DNA from: Nitrospirota bacterium
GTDB taxonomy: Bacteria > Nitrospirota > Nitrospiria > Nitrospirales > Nitrospiraceae
Reading direction: 5' to 3'
NCBI GenBank assembly: GCA_040757595.1
Contig: JBFLWP010000001.1
Location: 269,171-333,170, forward strand
Length of the DNA stretch: 64,000 nucleotides
Within the stretch, counting starts at the first letter, position 1, and every line of letters starts with the position of its first letter. Of this stretch, positions 1-32,736 are shown one piece after another. The notes beneath the pieces are model-generated. The model saw only the letters and a program-made list of their open reading frames with translations. It made no database searches and was not told the origin of the DNA. The position numbers were made by a program, and so were the translations under genes.

Positions 1-546
1 GGCTTCAATGGGGCCACGGCATCGCTGCCGTGGAATCGCCCGGCCGGCGGAACGAGCTGGCGATTTTCACGGTCGCTTCAATGGGGCCACGGCATCGCTG
101 CCGTGGAATCCGTGATGGACGACGAGATCATGAACGGGGACGGCGCGCTTCAATGGGGCCACGGCATCGCTGCCGTGGAATCCAGGGGGCCGCCTGAGTG
201 GGCCGCGGGGGAGCCACGCAGCTTCAATGGGGCCACGGCATCGCTGCCGTGGAATCGAAGGCCGCCCAGCTCGGCTTGACGCAAGCGGGCGTGCTTCAAT
301 GGGGCCACGGCATCGCTGCCGTGGAATCGGGATTCGTGCAGGCCGGCCTGACGCTCTGGGTCGAGCTTCAATGGGGCCACGGCATCGCTGCCGTGGAATC
401 TGTGAGCGGGCAGCTGGACGTGGACCCCGGCGTGAAGCTTCAATGGGGCCACGGCATCGCTGCCGTGGAATCGACGACCACCCCGTCCGTCATGGCCGCG
501 CCTCCAGATGGCTTCAATGGGGCCACGGCATCGCTGCCGTGGAATC
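1..546 (-). CRISPR. CRISPR array, 8 repeats and 7 spacers, cut by the window start
   Basis: Eight identical 36-bp repeats start at 2, 75, 147, 221, 293, 365, 437 and 511. Spacers are 36-38 bp. On the plus strand each repeat begins GCTTCAATGGGG and ends GCCGTGGAATC; on the minus strand it ends ATTGAAGC, the usual form of a repeat 3' end. The minus-strand repeat contains CCACGGCA-GCGA-TGCCGTGG, a perfect 8-bp stem closed by a GNRA-type tetraloop. This orientation matches the cas operon, so the array is probably transcribed leftward from a leader at 547-754 and processed at the hairpin by the Cas6-like part of Csb2. The array probably continues beyond position 1, because no degenerate terminal repeat is seen. 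Confidence 0.97.
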
Positions 547-21158: not shown

Positions 21159-22523
<1,365 letters not shown>

Positions 22524-22583: not shown

Positions 22584-24542
22584 ATGGAACGGACCGGGGG
22601 CCTTCAAAAGAAGTTTTTCGTCGCTCTCTTGATCGTCGGGATCGTGCCCGGCGTCGCGGCGCTCCTGGCCACCTACCTCTACAGCACCGAGAGCCTGAAA
22701 CATTCCATCGGGAACGGCTTCCAGGAGATCGCGCGCTCGACCGCCATCCGCATCGCCGCGGCGGTGGACATGGAAATCGACCGCGCCGAGCGGCTCGCGC
22801 TGGTGCCGGTCCAGATCCGGCAGGCCGTGGAGAAAGCCAACCGCCGCTTCGACGGCAAGACTGAGGCGCAGATCCGGGCCCTTCTGAAAGCCGAGCACGC
22901 CGACTGGCTGGCGGCCCGCTCGAAGGGGCTCCCGCTCCCCTTGCCCAGCACCACCACCTATCTGAACGAATGGGCCCGCGAAGTCGGCTACTACGTGCGG
23001 GTCGTGATCGCGGACAGCCGCGGAGCGCTCGTCGCGGCGTCCGATCCCAAAGCCTCCTACCTCTACGGCGACAAGGAATGGTGGCAGGAAGCCTTCGAGG
23101 AAGGCACGGCCTACGTCGGCTCCATCCAGTTCGACCTCCCGCTCAACGACTACGTCTTCGAGGTGGCCGTGCCCATTTTCGACAAGCGCCATACGGAGCC
23201 GATCGGAGCCGTCGGGCTGGTCGTCAGACGCGCCGTGCTCGTGAATACGATCCTGCCGATCCACATCGGCAAGACCGGCCACGGGATGCTCCTGGATACC
23301 GAGGGCACCCCGCTCATCTGTCCGGTGCTGCCGCCGACCGCACACCTGATCCACCAGGCCCTCCTCAATCAACTGGCCCGGGATCAACCGCTGTGGCTGG
23401 TCGCGGAGGACGACGCCCACGGCGGCCACAATTCCATCGTCGGAGCCGCCCCGGTCCAGTTCGCCCACAAGCTGAGCACGTCCAGCCTGGGAGGCGAGCG
23501 CTGGTTCTCCTTCGTCCGGCAGCAGCCGGAGGAGACCTACGCGCCGATCTATTCGCTGTTGGTGACGGTCGGGCTGATCGGGTTCGGGCTGGTCATCGTC
23601 CTGGCCTCGCTGGGCTTCGTCGTGGGGCGGCGCATCGTCGGCCCCATCCTGACGCTCCGGCGCCAAGCGGATGCCCTGCGACGCAACGTGGCGGCGCTGC
23701 CCGAGTCAGTCGACGCCTTCACGCCCCAGCCGGACCCGACTCCGGTCGAGATTCGCACCGGCGACGAGATCGAGGACCTGGCGCGGACCTTCCAGGCCAT
23801 GCGGAGCGCGCTGGAAACGAGCCTGCGCACCGTCAAGGCCCAGCAGGAGGAGCTGATCCGGCGTGAAAAGCTGGCCTCGGTCGGCCAGTTGCTGGCGGCG
23901 CTGGCGCACGACCTGCGGAATCCCCTGGGCGTGATCCGCAGTTCCGCCCAACTGGTGCTCGAGACGCAGCAGTCGGACGCCGTCAAGCAGGAAGTCGCCC
24001 GGTACATCATGGACGAGGTGGACCGGCTCACGCACCGGATCAACGATTTCCTCCGCTATGCGCGGCAGAAGCCGCCGGAGCCCAAGGCCATGGCGCCGGA
24101 CGCCCTTGCGGAAGCCGCCCTCTGGCAGTGGAAGGCGCAGGAAAGACCCGAGCGCATCGAGGTCCTCACCGACTTCGCCGAGCACCTCCCGTCCGTCAAC
24201 GTGGATCCCCAGCAGGTGAAGGAAGCCCTCGTGAACCTGCTCATCAACGCCCGGGAAGCCATGCCGGACGGGGGCCGCCTGACGGTCTCGACCAGAAGCG
24301 ACGACGGATGGATCGAGATCGAGGTGGCCGACACCGGTTGCGGCATCCCCCGGGCCAGCCTGGAGCGGATCTTCGAGCCGTTCTTCACGACCAAGGAATA
24401 CGGCACCGGCCTGGGCCTGACCAACGTCAAGCGGTTGATCGAGGGCAACGGCGGCACGCTCACCGTGGACAGCGAAGAGGGGAAGGGCAGCCGGTTCCTG
24501 GTCCGATTCCCATCCGGCCGGGCCGCCGGAGCCACGGCTTGA
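22584..24542 (+). CDS. Membrane sensor histidine kinase (dCache-HAMP-HisKA-HATPase)
   Basis: This 652-residue protein has a first membrane helix (FFVALLIVGIVPGVAALLATYL), a large periplasmic double-Cache-like sensor (about 40-310, with EWWQEAFEEGTAYVGSI and GAVGLVVRRAVLV), a second helix (LLVTVGLIGFGLVIVLASLG), HAMP, the H-box LAALAHDLRNPLGVIRSSAQ, N-box NLLINAREAMPDGG, G1 VADTGCGIP and G2 GTGLGLTNVKRL. Cache sensors usually bind small organic ligands in the periplasm. It is the probable partner of the preceding NtrC-type regulator. The short gap and shared strand suggest an operon continuing to clpX. Confidence 0.94.
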   Translation: MERTGGLQKKFFVALLIVGIVPGVAALLATYLYSTESLKHSIGNGFQEIARSTAIRIAAAVDMEIDRAERLALVPVQIRQAVEKANRRFDGKTEAQIRALLKAEHADWLAARSKGLPLPLPSTTTYLNEWAREVGYYVRVVIADSRGALVAASDPKASYLYGDKEWWQEAFEEGTAYVGSIQFDLPLNDYVFEVAVPIFDKRHTEPIGAVGLVVRRAVLVNTILPIHIGKTGHGMLLDTEGTPLICPVLPPTAHLIHQALLNQLARDQPLWLVAEDDAHGGHNSIVGAAPVQFAHKLSTSSLGGERWFSFVRQQPEETYAPIYSLLVTVGLIGFGLVIVLASLGFVVGRRIVGPILTLRRQADALRRNVAALPESVDAFTPQPDPTPVEIRTGDEIEDLARTFQAMRSALETSLRTVKAQQEELIRREKLASVGQLLAALAHDLRNPLGVIRSSAQLVLETQQSDAVKQEVARYIMDEVDRLTHRINDFLRYARQKPPEPKAMAPDALAEAALWQWKAQERPERIEVLTDFAEHLPSVNVDPQQVKEALVNLLINAREAMPDGGRLTVSTRSDDGWIEIEVADTGCGIPRASLERIFEPFFTTKEYGTGLGLTNVKRLIEGNGGTLTVDSEEGKGSRFLVRFPSGRAAGATA

Positions 24543-25921: not shown

Positions 25922-27253
25922 ATGGCGTCCAAAATCCTCGTAGTGGACGACGACCCCAAGTGGCTGCGGGTGGTGTCCCTCTACCTTCAGGCCCACGACT
26001 ACCGGGTCGACACGGCCGTGGACGGTGAAGCGGCTCTGCGCAAGATCTCCGAGGATTGCCCGGACGTCATCGTCGCCGACATCGGCATGCCCGGCCTGGA
26101 CGGGTACGAGCTCTGCAGCCAGATCCGACGGGACGCCAGGACCCGCGCCATCCCGTTCATTTTCCTCACCGCACGCGATCAGGACACGGACCGGACCAAG
26201 GCCCGGAAAATCGGCTCCGACGACTACCTGACCAAGCCCTGCCCGCTCGAGCGGCTCACCCAGAGCGTGGAGACCCTCATGGATCGCCTCCAGCTGGTGC
26301 GCAACATTCCCCTGGAACGGATCGGCCTGAGCGGCCGGCTGGAGGACGTGGACCTGTTGGACATGATCCAGGCCTTGGAGATGGAGCAGAGAACCGGTGC
26401 CCTCGTGCTCAGCCACGGCGAGCGGACCGGCACGATCTATTTTCAGGACGGCGTGATCGTGGAAGCCGACATCCGCTCCCCGAAGCGGGAGGAGCCCCTG
26501 TTCATCTTGCTCGGGTGGAAGAGCGGTCGGTTCCTGTTCCTTCCGGATGCGGTTCCGGAGCGGATGCCGATCACGGCGAGCATGGCCAACCTGCTCCTGC
26601 AAGACCTTCGAACGCTGGAGGAGCACGAGGCGGCGGCTTCGCCCCGAGAGGCTCCCGACGAAACCGGGAGCGGAGCGCAATCGGAGCTGGTTGGAAGGAT
26701 TCTGAATCGTCTCGAGGCGGTCGCGGAACAGATACGCACGTCACGGACGGTCGTCGGGGAGCCCCCGCCGGCCAGCATCCGCCTGCTGGTCGCCGGCGTC
26801 CGCCGGTCCGGCAAGAGCGAGCTGATTCATGCGCTGGTCAAGGACCTGTCCTCCTCGCGATGGGCCGCCGTGGGCGTCGAGGAGCCGCAGCCCAACCACC
26901 GCATTGATGTCGGCCGGATCAGGATCTCGCCTAAAACCGTCCTGCACCTCGTCGCCGTCCGCACCGAGAAGCGGTTCTGGTCGGTCTGGGAACAGTACTT
27001 GCCCGAGGCGACCGGCCTGTTGTTGCTGGTCGATCCTGCCTCCGGGGACTCGCTGGTCCACACCCAGGCATTCCTGAAAGCCCGTGAAGCCCTGGCTCCG
27101 GACCTTCCGGTACACGCGCTCATGCCTTCCAAGGCGGCGGACAAGGCCTTTCTCCACCTGCCGGACTCGGCCATCTCCGTCGGTTCGCTGAGCGACCAGA
27201 CGATGCGGCTGACGGCCCTCGACGAACTCCTTCAACAGTGGCTCGATGCCTAA
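25922..27253 (+). CDS. Receiver-PATAN-GTPase fusion protein
   Basis: The protein has 443 residues. Residues 1 to about 125 are a receiver (ILVVDDDPKWLRVV; phosphoacceptor in VIVADIGMPGLDGYEL; FIFLTARD; DYLTKPC). Residues about 135-230 are a PATAN/DUF4388 domain (GRLEDVDLLDMIQALEMEQRTG...GTIYFQDGVIVEADI). From about 285 a P-loop NTPase follows (Walker A AGVRRSGKSELIHAL; LLLLVDPAS; HALMPSKAADK), resembling small Ras/Arf/MglA-type GTPases, though the NKxD base motif is not canonical. PATAN proteins act in gliding, phototaxis and pilus control. A phospho-controlled GTPase output is inferred. Confidence 0.85.
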   Translation: MASKILVVDDDPKWLRVVSLYLQAHDYRVDTAVDGEAALRKISEDCPDVIVADIGMPGLDGYELCSQIRRDARTRAIPFIFLTARDQDTDRTKARKIGSDDYLTKPCPLERLTQSVETLMDRLQLVRNIPLERIGLSGRLEDVDLLDMIQALEMEQRTGALVLSHGERTGTIYFQDGVIVEADIRSPKREEPLFILLGWKSGRFLFLPDAVPERMPITASMANLLLQDLRTLEEHEAAASPREAPDETGSGAQSELVGRILNRLEAVAEQIRTSRTVVGEPPPASIRLLVAGVRRSGKSELIHALVKDLSSSRWAAVGVEEPQPNHRIDVGRIRISPKTVLHLVAVRTEKRFWSVWEQYLPEATGLLLLVDPASGDSLVHTQAFLKAREALAPDLPVHALMPSKAADKAFLHLPDSAISVGSLSDQTMRLTALDELLQQWLDA

Positions 27254-27292: not shown

Positions 27293-28894
27293 TTACGGCG
27301 CGTCCGCCGCGCAGCGGAAGCCCAGGGTTGGCCCCCAGTAGGTCATCTCGTCCCATCCCCGATAACTGGTTCGGAGTTCCAGCGGCCCCTGGCTCCAGTC
27401 CCCCCCGCGGAAAACCCGGAAGGAGCCCCTGAGCGGCCCCTGCGGATCATGGGCCGGAGCCGTCGCGTAAAAATCGTCCGCGTACCAGTCTTTCACCCAT
27501 TCCCACACGCCGCCGGTCAGATCGAAGACCCCATAAGGCGAGGCGGTTCCGGGAACCGCCCCGACCGGCCCCGTGCCGTTACCGTCCGGCTTCAGAGCCC
27601 GCTCTTTCAGCCTCACCTTGACGACGTCGAAGGAATTCCCCCAGGGGTACCGCCGCCCATCGGTACCGCGCGCCGCTTTCTCCCACTCGGCCTCGGTCGG
27701 GAGGCGCCCTCCCTTCCATTCGCAAAAGGCACGAGCCTGTGCCCACGTCACGTTCGTCACCGGGTGGTCGGCCTTCTGGGGATCGTCAAAGGCGCGCGTG
27801 TCCTTCGGCGGCGAACAGGCCCCACTCCTGACGCAGGCGCGATACCGTTCGTTGACGACTTCGTACTGGTCGATCCAGAAGGAGCTCACGTAGGTGCGAT
27901 GTCTGGGTCTGGTATCGGGCAGCCCGTCTTCGGAGCCCATCAGGAATTCTCCGGCCGGAATCAACACCATGCCCGGCGGCGACGGGATCCCCTGCTGCGC
28001 CAGCCGACGCAGTTCTTCCTGCTGAGTCGTCGCCAGTTGCTGATTCACCTTGACGATCTCTCCGGAATCATCCCGCTCCTCGGCGGCCGGTTTGCGACCG
28101 GGCTCCTGCTTCTGGCCGGCCATCGCCTCCCGCCCGGAGGCCAGCGCGGGGGGGACGGCGGTCCCCGCGGGCGGCTCCGGCACCGTGACGGTCTCGATCC
28201 GCACCGTGGTCCTGGCCACCTCCCGCACCGACTGTTCCATGTCCAACGTCCGCGCCTTGCGCTTGCTCGTGCTTCTGCCAGCCAGGCCGATGGCCGTGAA
28301 GTCGAAATCCGGAATGTTGGCCAGCAGCGGAGTCGCATAACTGATGGGCACGGCGAAGGCCATGCCTTCCGGCACGATTCCGGAGGGATGGTGGAACTTG
28401 GTCGTCATGATCCCGATCACTTCGCCGAATCGGTTGAACACCGCCCCCCCGCTATTGCCCGGATTGACCGCGGCATCGATCTGGAAGACGCGACGCACCC
28501 CCTTCGTGCGAACCGCGGTCACGCGCCCGCGCGAGACCGAGACCTCGCGCAGCCCGAAAGCAAACCCGGCCGCGATGACTTCCTGATCCAGCCTCACCAT
28601 GCCGGCATAGCCCAATGGTGCTTTCGACAATCCGACGGTCTCGATTTTCAGCAGGGCCAGATCCTGGTCGCGATCCGCGCTCACCAGCAAGGCCGGCGCG
28701 CGAAACTCCCCCGGCGTGACGACCGTGATCCGTTTGGCGTTGGAAACGACGTGGTAGGCGGTCAGGACGTACCCGTCTTCGTGCACGATCACGCCGCTGC
28801 CGGCCGGCTTCTCGGTCGGTCCCGGCTGACTTTCGGCGGCGCTGGCGCTGCCCGAGCCTAGCAGCAACAATAGGAACAGAGCAGTCCGTATCAT
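27293..28894 (-). CDS. Exported trypsin-like protease fused to an FGE-sulfatase domain
   Basis: This 533-residue protein from ATG 28894 has a signal peptide (MIRTALFLLLLLGSGSASA). Residues about 25-235 form an HtrA/trypsin-like serine protease with His in LTAYHVVSNA, Asp in DRDQDLALLKIE and Ser in NPGNSGGAVFN. After a linker of about 80 residues, a formylglycine-generating-enzyme-type domain follows (GMVLIPAGEFLMGSEDG, VTNVTWAQARAFCEWKGGRLPTEAEWEKAARG, RVFRGGDW, LGFRCA). The FGE fold here is more likely a ligand or peptide-binding module than a true sulfatase-maturing enzyme. The start overlaps the upstream gene stop by ATGA, so the two are coupled. Confidence 0.88.
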   Translation of the reverse strand: MIRTALFLLLLLGSGSASAAESQPGPTEKPAGSGVIVHEDGYVLTAYHVVSNAKRITVVTPGEFRAPALLVSADRDQDLALLKIETVGLSKAPLGYAGMVRLDQEVIAAGFAFGLREVSVSRGRVTAVRTKGVRRVFQIDAAVNPGNSGGAVFNRFGEVIGIMTTKFHHPSGIVPEGMAFAVPISYATPLLANIPDFDFTAIGLAGRSTSKRKARTLDMEQSVREVARTTVRIETVTVPEPPAGTAVPPALASGREAMAGQKQEPGRKPAAEERDDSGEIVKVNQQLATTQQEELRRLAQQGIPSPPGMVLIPAGEFLMGSEDGLPDTRPRHRTYVSSFWIDQYEVVNERYRACVRSGACSPPKDTRAFDDPQKADHPVTNVTWAQARAFCEWKGGRLPTEAEWEKAARGTDGRRYPWGNSFDVVKVRLKERALKPDGNGTGPVGAVPGTASPYGVFDLTGGVWEWVKDWYADDFYATAPAHDPQGPLRGSFRVFRGGDWSQGPLELRTSYRGWDEMTYWGPTLGFRCAADAP

Positions 28895-29682
28895 TTGCCA
28901 ATCGGGATCGTCACGCTGATCGCTCCTGCGTTCTGTCCCAGCCTGAGCCCCTCCCTGGGGTGGCCGGTCCGGTCCGGAGCGCCCTTCGGCTCTCCGTGAC
29001 ATTCCAGACACCGCCGCGTCGTGTAGAGCGGGTACATGAGTCTCAGCGCCCCGCTCTTGGCGGTAACTTCGCTGATCACCTTCTCCTTCGGATAGGCGGA
29101 GGCGGCAAATTCCTGGAGCGCCGCCCGCTCGAAGGCGTCGGGCCCGTTCGACGGATTGCGCGGAGCAAGCGCCGTCTGTTTGAGCCGTACGCCCGTCAGC
29201 TCCAGAAACCGCCCAGCCACCCGCGCACCGAAGACGGCGGGAATGAATCCCTTGAAGCCGACCCCCCGCTGGTTGATTTGGGCCTGAGCTTCCGCCACGA
29301 CCTGCTTGCCGGTCGTGACGAGGACCGGAAGCAACTCCTTGGCTCGCTGCGGCACGCGCGCCGTCGCGAGGTCGCGCAGGTCGATCGTGGAACGGCTCCG
29401 GAAATCCTCGACGAGCTGCTGCTCGAACACCCCCGGAGAAAATCCCTTCTCCCCTTTGCCGGGATCGTCGAAGAGATCCTGATTTTCATTGATCACAGCG
29501 CGGCCGGATTCGAGGAGAATGGCAAGAAAGCGCGCCGTCGTTTCGAATTCGAGCACGGTCTGAAGGGCCGGACCCTGCGGCGAAAACTCCCGCTCCTTCG
29601 CACAAACGCCTTCCGCGGGGAACGCCGCCACCCACCCCACGGCCATCAGTGCCGGCAACACCCAACGCTCAACGGTCCGCAT
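28891..29682 (-). CDS. Tll0287-like (DUF3365) periplasmic haem protein
   Basis: This 263-residue protein starts at ATG 29682 with a signal peptide (MRTVERWVLPALMAVGWVAAFPAEGVCA). The rest matches DUF3365/Tll0287-like proteins, with a C-terminal haem c site in YTTRRCLECHGEPKGAPD and the usual closing strand AISVTIPIGK. These domains are redox or gas sensors, free or fused to kinases. ATGA overlap with the protease-FGE gene suggests a two-protein periplasmic unit in which a haem sensor is linked to a protease; the link is inference. Confidence 0.82.
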   Translation of the reverse strand: MRTVERWVLPALMAVGWVAAFPAEGVCAKEREFSPQGPALQTVLEFETTARFLAILLESGRAVINENQDLFDDPGKGEKGFSPGVFEQQLVEDFRSRSTIDLRDLATARVPQRAKELLPVLVTTGKQVVAEAQAQINQRGVGFKGFIPAVFGARVAGRFLELTGVRLKQTALAPRNPSNGPDAFERAALQEFAASAYPKEKVISEVTAKSGALRLMYPLYTTRRCLECHGEPKGAPDRTGHPREGLRLGQNAGAISVTIPIGK

Positions 29683-31779: not shown

Positions 31780-32736
31780 TTACGCTGTCTTCCGGTATGT
31801 TCCCCCGGCAGCCTCCGCCTGGCCCTCCGCCACAAAAACCGGTTCATGCTCGACGCTCGGCGTGAGCAGCCCGGCCAGGAACAGCCCGACCAACAGAGCC
31901 GACGCCGCGAACAGGAACCCGACCGGCACCTCCGGCCAGGAGCGCGGCTGCGTCATCGGCACGGTCTCTCCGGGCCTCGTCAGGGCGTCGGCTGAGGCAA
32001 GGTGATCGAAGCGATCCGCGACCTGCTCGTGGTGAATCGAGGCGATGGTAACCGCAGCCAGTTGCTCCTGAGTTCCAGCGCGGGCTTCTCGGTACCCATC
32101 CTGAACCAGCGTAAAGGCGGCGATTGCCTCCCCCATCCGCTGCTGCACCTGGCTCGCGAGCTGATCGTGGGCCAGGCTGGTCGCCACGATTTGCCACCCA
32201 AGCAGCGACTGATGAAGGCGCTGGTAGTCCTCCTCCATCCGGCCGGCGTTCAGCTCGGCGAGACGGATCATTCGCCGGTTGTAGCCCCCGTCAAGTTGGG
32301 CCGGCGACAGGAGCCCGTTTTTCACGCCTCTCGTCGTAAAGTTCACGATCGTGCGCCCCAGCACGTACTGGACCCGGATGGCATGGTCGGCCTCCAGGGA
32401 GGTCTCGTACATTCCGACCCGCTCAACCAGTTCGAACGGCGTGAACTGCACGCGCTGGCCGGTGAGCAGCGCCCGGCTCAGCGCCATCGCGGCCTTGGCC
32501 ATGTCGCGCTGTTCCTGCCGCTCCAGGAGGTAATCCTCCACGATCGCCTGTCCCAGAGCCGGCTGCACCCATTGCATCGCGTCCAACGGGCTCACGAGCT
32601 GTGCGGCCGAGTCCGTCTGGGATGCGGCCGCTTCGAGGGTGCCGTTTGCGGATATGAAGATGAAGTATCCGCCGAGCACCGTTGCAAAGACGCCCACCGC
32701 GACCATCAAATCGACTGGTTCAAGCCGTCGTTTCAT
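31780..32736 (-). CDS. Two-helix membrane protein with a long periplasmic helical domain
   Basis: This 318-residue protein has a first membrane helix at about 10-30 (LMVAVGVFATVLGGYFIFIS) and a second at about 270-290 (VGFLFAASALLVGLFLAGLL). About 240 residues lie between them, nearly all helical and Gln/Ala-rich, resembling a four-helix-bundle sensor domain of chemoreceptors but without HAMP or a signalling domain. GGAGGTTGCG precedes the ATG. No family is recognised; a scaffold or sensor acting with the adjacent 55-residue protein is possible. Confidence 0.7.
   Translation of the reverse strand: MKRRLEPVDLMVAVGVFATVLGGYFIFISANGTLEAAASQTDSAAQLVSPLDAMQWVQPALGQAIVEDYLLERQEQRDMAKAAMALSRALLTGQRVQFTPFELVERVGMYETSLEADHAIRVQYVLGRTIVNFTTRGVKNGLLSPAQLDGGYNRRMIRLAELNAGRMEEDYQRLHQSLLGWQIVATSLAHDQLASQVQQRMGEAIAAFTLVQDGYREARAGTQEQLAAVTIASIHHEQVADRFDHLASADALTRPGETVPMTQPRSWPEVPVGFLFAASALLVGLFLAGLLTPSVEHEPVFVAEGQAEAAGGTYRKTA

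Follow-up and report, generated by a model that had tools for sequence, protein, structure and literature searches.

A receiver-PATAN protein of Nitrospiraceae with a predicted MglA-like, probably pseudoGTPase, domain is encoded next to a second ClpX

In the present study, P0001, which is encoded in a stretch of 64,000 nucleotides from a Nitrospiraceae genome (contig JBFLWP010000001.1; hereafter the window), was found to unite a receiver domain, a PATAN (DUF4388) domain, and a C-terminal domain with a predicted Arf/MglA-like fold in one polypeptide. Judged from its motifs, the C-terminal domain does not resemble a functional GTPase and is best labelled a pseudoGTPase according to the published definition that we adopted (PMC5593906), with the P-loop kept and the other GTPase motifs tested lost. 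We tentatively favour the view, which we regard as possible rather than probable, that P0001, a response regulator whose output would be protein binding, acts as a phosphorylation-controlled adaptor or recruiter of the neighbouring ClpX, the pseudoGTPase serving as its binding platform. The occurrence of PATAN and MglA genes as neighbours is already known; the one-chain form with a degenerate GTPase domain appears to be new.

Domain organization and conservation of P0001

The features of P0001 and its upstream genes are listed in Table 1. In a domain-architecture search, which had been suggested along with the original prediction for this gene, the Pfam models for the receiver and PATAN both matched far above their cut-offs (71.3 bits for PATAN against a cut-off of 25 for PF14332), and sequence alone settles the identity of these two domains with certainty. 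The C-terminal part matched no Pfam model at the cut-off, and DUF463, AAA_14, and Arf appeared as sub-threshold matches with E-values of 0.04-0.14. The acidic residues around D10/D11, the phosphoacceptor D53, T83, and K105 of the receiver were intact in the window protein and in all of the aligned rows holding the N-terminus (7/7); the C-terminal fragment L014 makes up the eighth row and lies outside this count.

Table 1. Features of P0001 and of the genes upstream of it, with positions in the window
Feature	Position	Strand	Basis or remarks
NtrC-type response regulator: receiver, sigma-54 activator AAA+, Fis-type HTH	21159..22523	+	domain scan
Sensor histidine kinase: dCache, HAMP, HisKA, HATPase	22584..24542	+	domain scan
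Second ClpX (paralogue), directly upstream of P0001	24593..25867	+	NCBIfam ClpX above cut-off, alignment, tree
Receiver-PATAN-pseudoGTPase protein P0001	25922..27253	+	ATG start, 443 aa, uninterrupted frame
Receiver domain, residues 5-116	25934..26269	+	Pfam PF00072, E 1.9e-28
PATAN / DUF4388, residues 137-235	26330..26626	+	Pfam PF14332, E 9.6e-20
Variable linker, residues 236-284, predicted helix 251-274	26627..26773	+	mean pairwise identity 26%
Predicted MglA/Arf-fold domain with degenerate GTPase motifs, residues 285-443	26774..27250	+	profiles, predicted fold, motif table
G1 / Walker A (P-loop), residues 292-301	26795..26824	+	motif alignment, 8 rows
G3 / switch II place, residues 341-353	26942..26980	+	A-hydrophobic-R-x-E-K/A-R-F instead of GTPGQ/DxxGQ

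Homologues with the same architecture were detected in 7 further genomes within the family, with identities of 45-88% depending on the domain and the pair compared, and P0001 is therefore not a chance ORF. The mean pairwise identity of the homologues was highest in PATAN (81%), followed by the receiver (69%) and the Ras-fold domain (53%). The homologous gene in G003 was split across two contigs (L050 and L051), and L011 and L018 represent one contig (11,608 bases each), only one of which was used in A1.

Distribution in the family and phylum

The Ras-fold P-loop domain was present in 8/147 genomes of the family, counting the window's own genome and dropping one chance match, and in 3/395 genomes of the phylum sample, all of which belong to the same family. 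The match dropped as a carrier was L017 (E-value of 6.6e-4), an ORF that reads as Ppx/GppA-like, while the fourth match in the phylum sample, L029/L086 (G120), was rejected because it is a small GTPase of a different type with intact motifs. PATAN is widespread in the phylum, with a match in 189/395 genomes, and a C-terminal Ras-like domain was found in 0/30 of the new PATAN loci that were read among the matches listed from these 189 genomes. Two further DUF4388 matches, L043 and L044, were not counted as PATAN regulators; their ORFs of 742-744 codons were read as CheA-like. Five genomes of the sister family f3 encode a receiver-PATAN protein that ends after PATAN and carries no P-loop domain, and this short protein is 45-49% identical to the fused protein over the common part.

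Predicted fold of the C-terminal domain

When the PDB was searched with a single sequence, Sar1/Arf chains were matched with an E-value of 0.03 at best. With a profile of the eight homologues, Rab4B was matched with an E-value of 5.8e-6, followed at lower ranks by numerous Rab, Sec4, and Arf-like chains. Profile-profile comparisons yielded an E-value of 8.6e-10 against three small GTPases with GTPGQ from one cyanobacterial genome; against a set of six small GTPases whose motifs are conventional, taken from the window's own family and from cyanobacterial genomes, the E-value was 5.5e-9. The AlphaFold2 model of the domain alone, the input for which consisted of two sequences only (the window protein and L018), was of moderate quality (mean pLDDT of 71.7 and pTM of 0.71). 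In the full-chain model, the ten-residue blocks from residue 331 onward were at 68-93; the receiver and PATAN parts were both modelled poorly, and thus no structural claim is made for them.

In comparisons of the domain model with known structures, MglA filled the top seven places by Z (3t12 first, with a Z of 16.0 and 2.8 A over 153 residues), and Ras and Arf entries trailed MglA by approximately 1.5 Z at most. Foldseek placed Rab4a at the top for the same model (E-value of 9.2e-8), and Arf1 (16.2) and MglA (15.9) tied for the full-length model. Since the profile searches of the PDB, the profile-profile comparisons, and the predicted fold agree, the assignment of an Arf/MglA-like fold is well supported, and the original prediction that a receiver, PATAN, and an Arf/MglA-like P-loop fold are joined in one chain is borne out by Pfam, the profiles, and the predicted fold.

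GTPase motifs

The Walker A motif of the window protein reads G-V-R-R-S-G-K-S, and among the eight rows the glycines of GxxxxGK[ST] were present in 8/8 and the Lys and Ser in 7/8. The exception, L016 from genome G026, has lost both the Lys and Ser and has kept the remaining domain. No conserved threonine for G2 (switch I) was found in either plausible register of the eight rows, the alignment of this loop being uncertain. Neither the DxxGQ of Ras nor the GTPGQ that is published for MglA Groups 2-5 and found in the nearest intact relatives was present at G3 in the eight rows; this site reads A-V-R-T-E-K in the window protein, A-V/I/L-R-x-E-K/A in 7/8 rows, and S-V-R-A-E-K in L014. The Arg, Glu, and Arg-Phe of the rewritten G3 were invariant (8/8 rows), with Glu at the position of the Gln in all eight, and the conservation of the rewritten form itself argues for a new constraint and not for plain decay. 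The G4 motif [NT]KxD was found in 0/8 rows. This absence weighs less because MglA Groups 2 and 3 are also described as departing from G4, and CvnD9, a Group 2 protein, still has GTPase activity (PMC4316618).

No match to Roadblock/MglB (PF03259) was obtained above the threshold in the eight carrier genomes, three of which are merely 72-84% complete; the same test was positive in G013 and in 3/14 control genomes. A query with a Rup-type GTPase gave no match in the window's own genome, where there was no positive control, and a search of this genome with the Arf model gave one match, inside a frame of 889 codons. An MglA-like ORF with a T-V-P-G-Q form of G3 was observed at L088 (G441:C251), in a genome reached via a Myxococcota record.

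These results do not sustain the part of the original prediction in which the Ras-fold domain was a GTPase switch: of the G motifs tested, only G1 was kept, in 7/8 rows, and the G2 threonine, G3, G4, and a detectable Roadblock/MglB partner were absent. The condition that was named at the time as refuting the prediction, a C-terminal domain lacking a nucleotide site in a reliable structural model, does not hold outright because the P-loop sequence is present, but the residues for reading guanine and the gamma-phosphate are absent.

Gene neighbourhood

The window holds, all on the plus strand, an NtrC-type regulator, a Cache-HAMP kinase, ClpX, and P0001 in this order. The second ClpX behind the kinase and the NtrC-type regulator is the most informative part of the context, and it had not been noted in the original prediction. 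ClpX is encoded immediately upstream of the receiver-PATAN gene in 13/13 genomes, namely, 8/8 with the fused gene (f1) and 5/5 with the short gene (f3). The NtrC-type regulator and the kinase both lie upstream in G000, G018, G002, G025, G418, and G439, whereas a single one of them was seen in G003 and G438. Contigs stop early in G012, G031, and G435, which limits the upstream view there, and in G026 and G355 neither was found upstream of ClpX within the stretch read. G026, the source of the homologue without the Walker A Lys and Ser, is thus also a genome in which no kinase or NtrC gene was seen at this place (L049; G026:C183:1-5212).

By alignment and tree, the ClpX in the window is distinct from the housekeeping ClpX. 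The same genome encodes a further ClpX elsewhere, which shares 65% identity with the window copy, and the operon ClpX copies of f1 and f3 formed one clade (support of 1.000), apart from the canonical ClpX of the same genomes. Walker A, the GYVG pore loop, RKH, and the IGF-type ClpP loop are all retained in the second ClpX, and we take the GYVG, RKH, and IGF loops to be its unfoldase and ClpP-docking motifs; its zinc domain is enlarged by an insertion of 8 residues that brings an additional CxxC. The zinc domain of ClpX is where adaptors bind. Among the matches listed, a second ClpX was detected in at least 28 further genomes of the family that have no P-loop gene, and neither an NtrC-type nor a receiver-PATAN gene stood alongside it in the 14 of these 28 loci that were opened. 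Since the second ClpX is found apart from the regulator, it does not need it, and the dependence is one-sided: the regulator was always seen with ClpX and ClpX often without the regulator, which is compatible with an accessory adaptor.

No signal above chance was obtained for a sigma-54 promoter or a terminator. Three other features were observed in the window. A protein that is probably membrane-anchored and has no Pfam match is encoded on the minus strand (31780-32736); homologues of it are found close to the second ClpX in 8/14 of the opened loci and between the NtrC and ClpX genes in three sister-family genomes. The gene at 27293-29011 (minus strand) encodes trypsin-like protease and formylglycine-generating-enzyme-like (SUMF1) domains in one chain, with homologues near the receiver-PATAN gene in G012 and G018. 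Two CRISPR-DR16 direct repeats are located at the window edge (75-183, minus strand).

Discussion

P0001 shares features with several known systems and departs from each of them. With the MglA family (Groups 1-5; Wuichet and Sogaard-Andersen, 2014), it has the predicted fold in common (Z of 16.0 to 3t12), and the profile of its Ras-fold matches cyanobacterial relatives that carry the GTPGQ published for Groups 2-5 (PMC4316618); however, MglA is a single-domain protein, whereas the Ras-fold of P0001 is part of a receiver-PATAN chain, lacks the switch I threonine, GTPGQ, and [NT]KxD, and occurs in carriers in which no MglB was detected. The response regulators PixG, PixE, LsiR, and PatA resemble P0001 in having a receiver and PATAN/DUF4388, and differ from it in that the order in P0001 is receiver, PATAN, and Ras-fold domain and its neighbour is ClpX. 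In PatA, PATAN is N-terminal, as its name tells. The ClpXP adaptors CpdR and RssB are, like P0001, phosphorylatable receiver proteins, and P0001 is tied to a ClpX by gene order. RssB has an output domain unlike that of P0001, and the receiver protein CpdR is small. In comparison with the pseudoGTPases p190RhoGAP pG1/pG2, CENP-M, Rnd, and RGK, the domain in P0001 differs by being bacterial and MglA-like and by keeping Walker A.

The original prediction had linked PATAN to separate GTPase proteins, which agrees with what has been published on gene neighbours: MglA genes of Groups 1 and 5 at times adjoin PATAN genes, PATAN-MglB neighbours are also reported (PMC4316618), and a table for Anaerolinea lists a PATAN gene adjacent to a GTPase gene (PMC8756737). 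A description of the one-chain degenerate form was not found in the literature searched, the scope of which excluded Makarova 2006, the supplements of PMC4316618, and protein-database annotation; the literature search on bacterial pseudoGTPases likewise gave no description of this fusion.

The gene order and the precedent of CpdR, a response regulator described as an adaptor for ClpXP (PMC11519897), lead us to infer an adaptor role for P0001. The neighbouring kinase would phosphorylate both the NtrC-type regulator, which would alter transcription, and the receiver-PATAN-pseudoGTPase protein, in which phosphorylation of the receiver would switch its interaction with either the adjacent ClpX or a client. 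P0001 may then recruit or deliver the client to ClpX, in the manner of CpdR for ClpXP. The pseudoGTPase would be a lineage-restricted platform to which the client, the zinc domain of ClpX, or a partner of PATAN binds, and its P-loop perhaps holds a nucleotide or phosphate as a structural element with no GTP cycling. Counting against this reading are the second ClpX found elsewhere without the regulator, the two genomes (G026 and G355) with no kinase or NtrC gene in the stretch read, and the type IV pilus proteins targeted by those PATAN regulators that have a known partner, with T2SSE ATPases being encoded everywhere tested. It is rather unlikely, on our estimate, that P0001 is a kinase-controlled adaptor with two keys for a private ClpX, in which the MglA-derived domain does not hydrolyse GTP any more and its P-loop and the rewritten, invariant R-x-E-x-R-F of switch II sense a nucleotide or carry the client. 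If so, a former Ras-like switch would have become the substrate selector of a dedicated unfoldase.

An effect on type IV pili was also considered, in which PATAN would bind a PilB-type extension ATPase in a manner similar to PixE and the pseudoGTPase would mimic the MglA surface that recruits pilus regulators. PATAN-pilus links are reported in cyanobacteria, as for PixE and PilB1 (PMC7690835), and MglA is described as controlling pili in Myxococcus (PMC11580455). T2SSE-family ATPases were encoded in 18/18 genomes tested, including the window's own; however, their presence was the same in genomes with and without the receiver-PATAN-Ras-fold gene, no pilus gene was found among the neighbouring window genes scanned, and the constant neighbour is ClpX. 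We consider this explanation unlikely.

The motif data bear on two further possibilities. A fused and active switch, in which GTP binding and hydrolysis take place in the MglA-like domain at an unusual site formed by Walker A and the invariant Arg and Glu of G3, with receiver phosphorylation acting as an internal exchange factor or GAP, would be consistent with the Walker A motif in 7/8 rows, the MglA-like predicted fold, the replacement of the G3 Gln by Glu in 8/8, and the activity of CvnD9 despite the deviation of MglA Groups 2 and 3 in G4 (PMC4316618). We regard it as distinctly improbable because the G3 glycine, the switch I threonine, and G4 are all missing, L016 has dispensed with the Walker A Lys and Ser in an otherwise retained domain, and no Roadblock partner was detected in the carrier genomes; a working GTPase switch was accordingly rejected as the leading reading, with the switch I threonine, G3, and G4 lost. 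The domain may also be an inert relic, acquired through fusion, that has become functionless and persists as a folded tail. That it is the least conserved folded part (53% against 69 and 81%) and is missing from the sister-family protein would suit such a history, whereas its in-frame presence in every homologue read and its 31 invariant columns, which include part of the rewritten G3, argue against it, and we give little credence to this possibility.

The presence of PATAN genes beside MglA and MglB genes was noted, with no physical explanation, in PMC4316618 and the 2006 work that it cites, and the union of PATAN and an MglA-fold in one polypeptide points to direct cooperation between them. 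Should the domain prove to be a pseudoGTPase, a class for which most descriptions come from eukaryotes would gain a bacterial example, one whose natural homologues vary precisely at the lysine of the P-loop. The second ClpX, as the constant neighbour, represents a concrete candidate output for PATAN regulators besides type IV pili, and P0001 may steer protein degradation in these bacteria instead of acting as a GTP switch.
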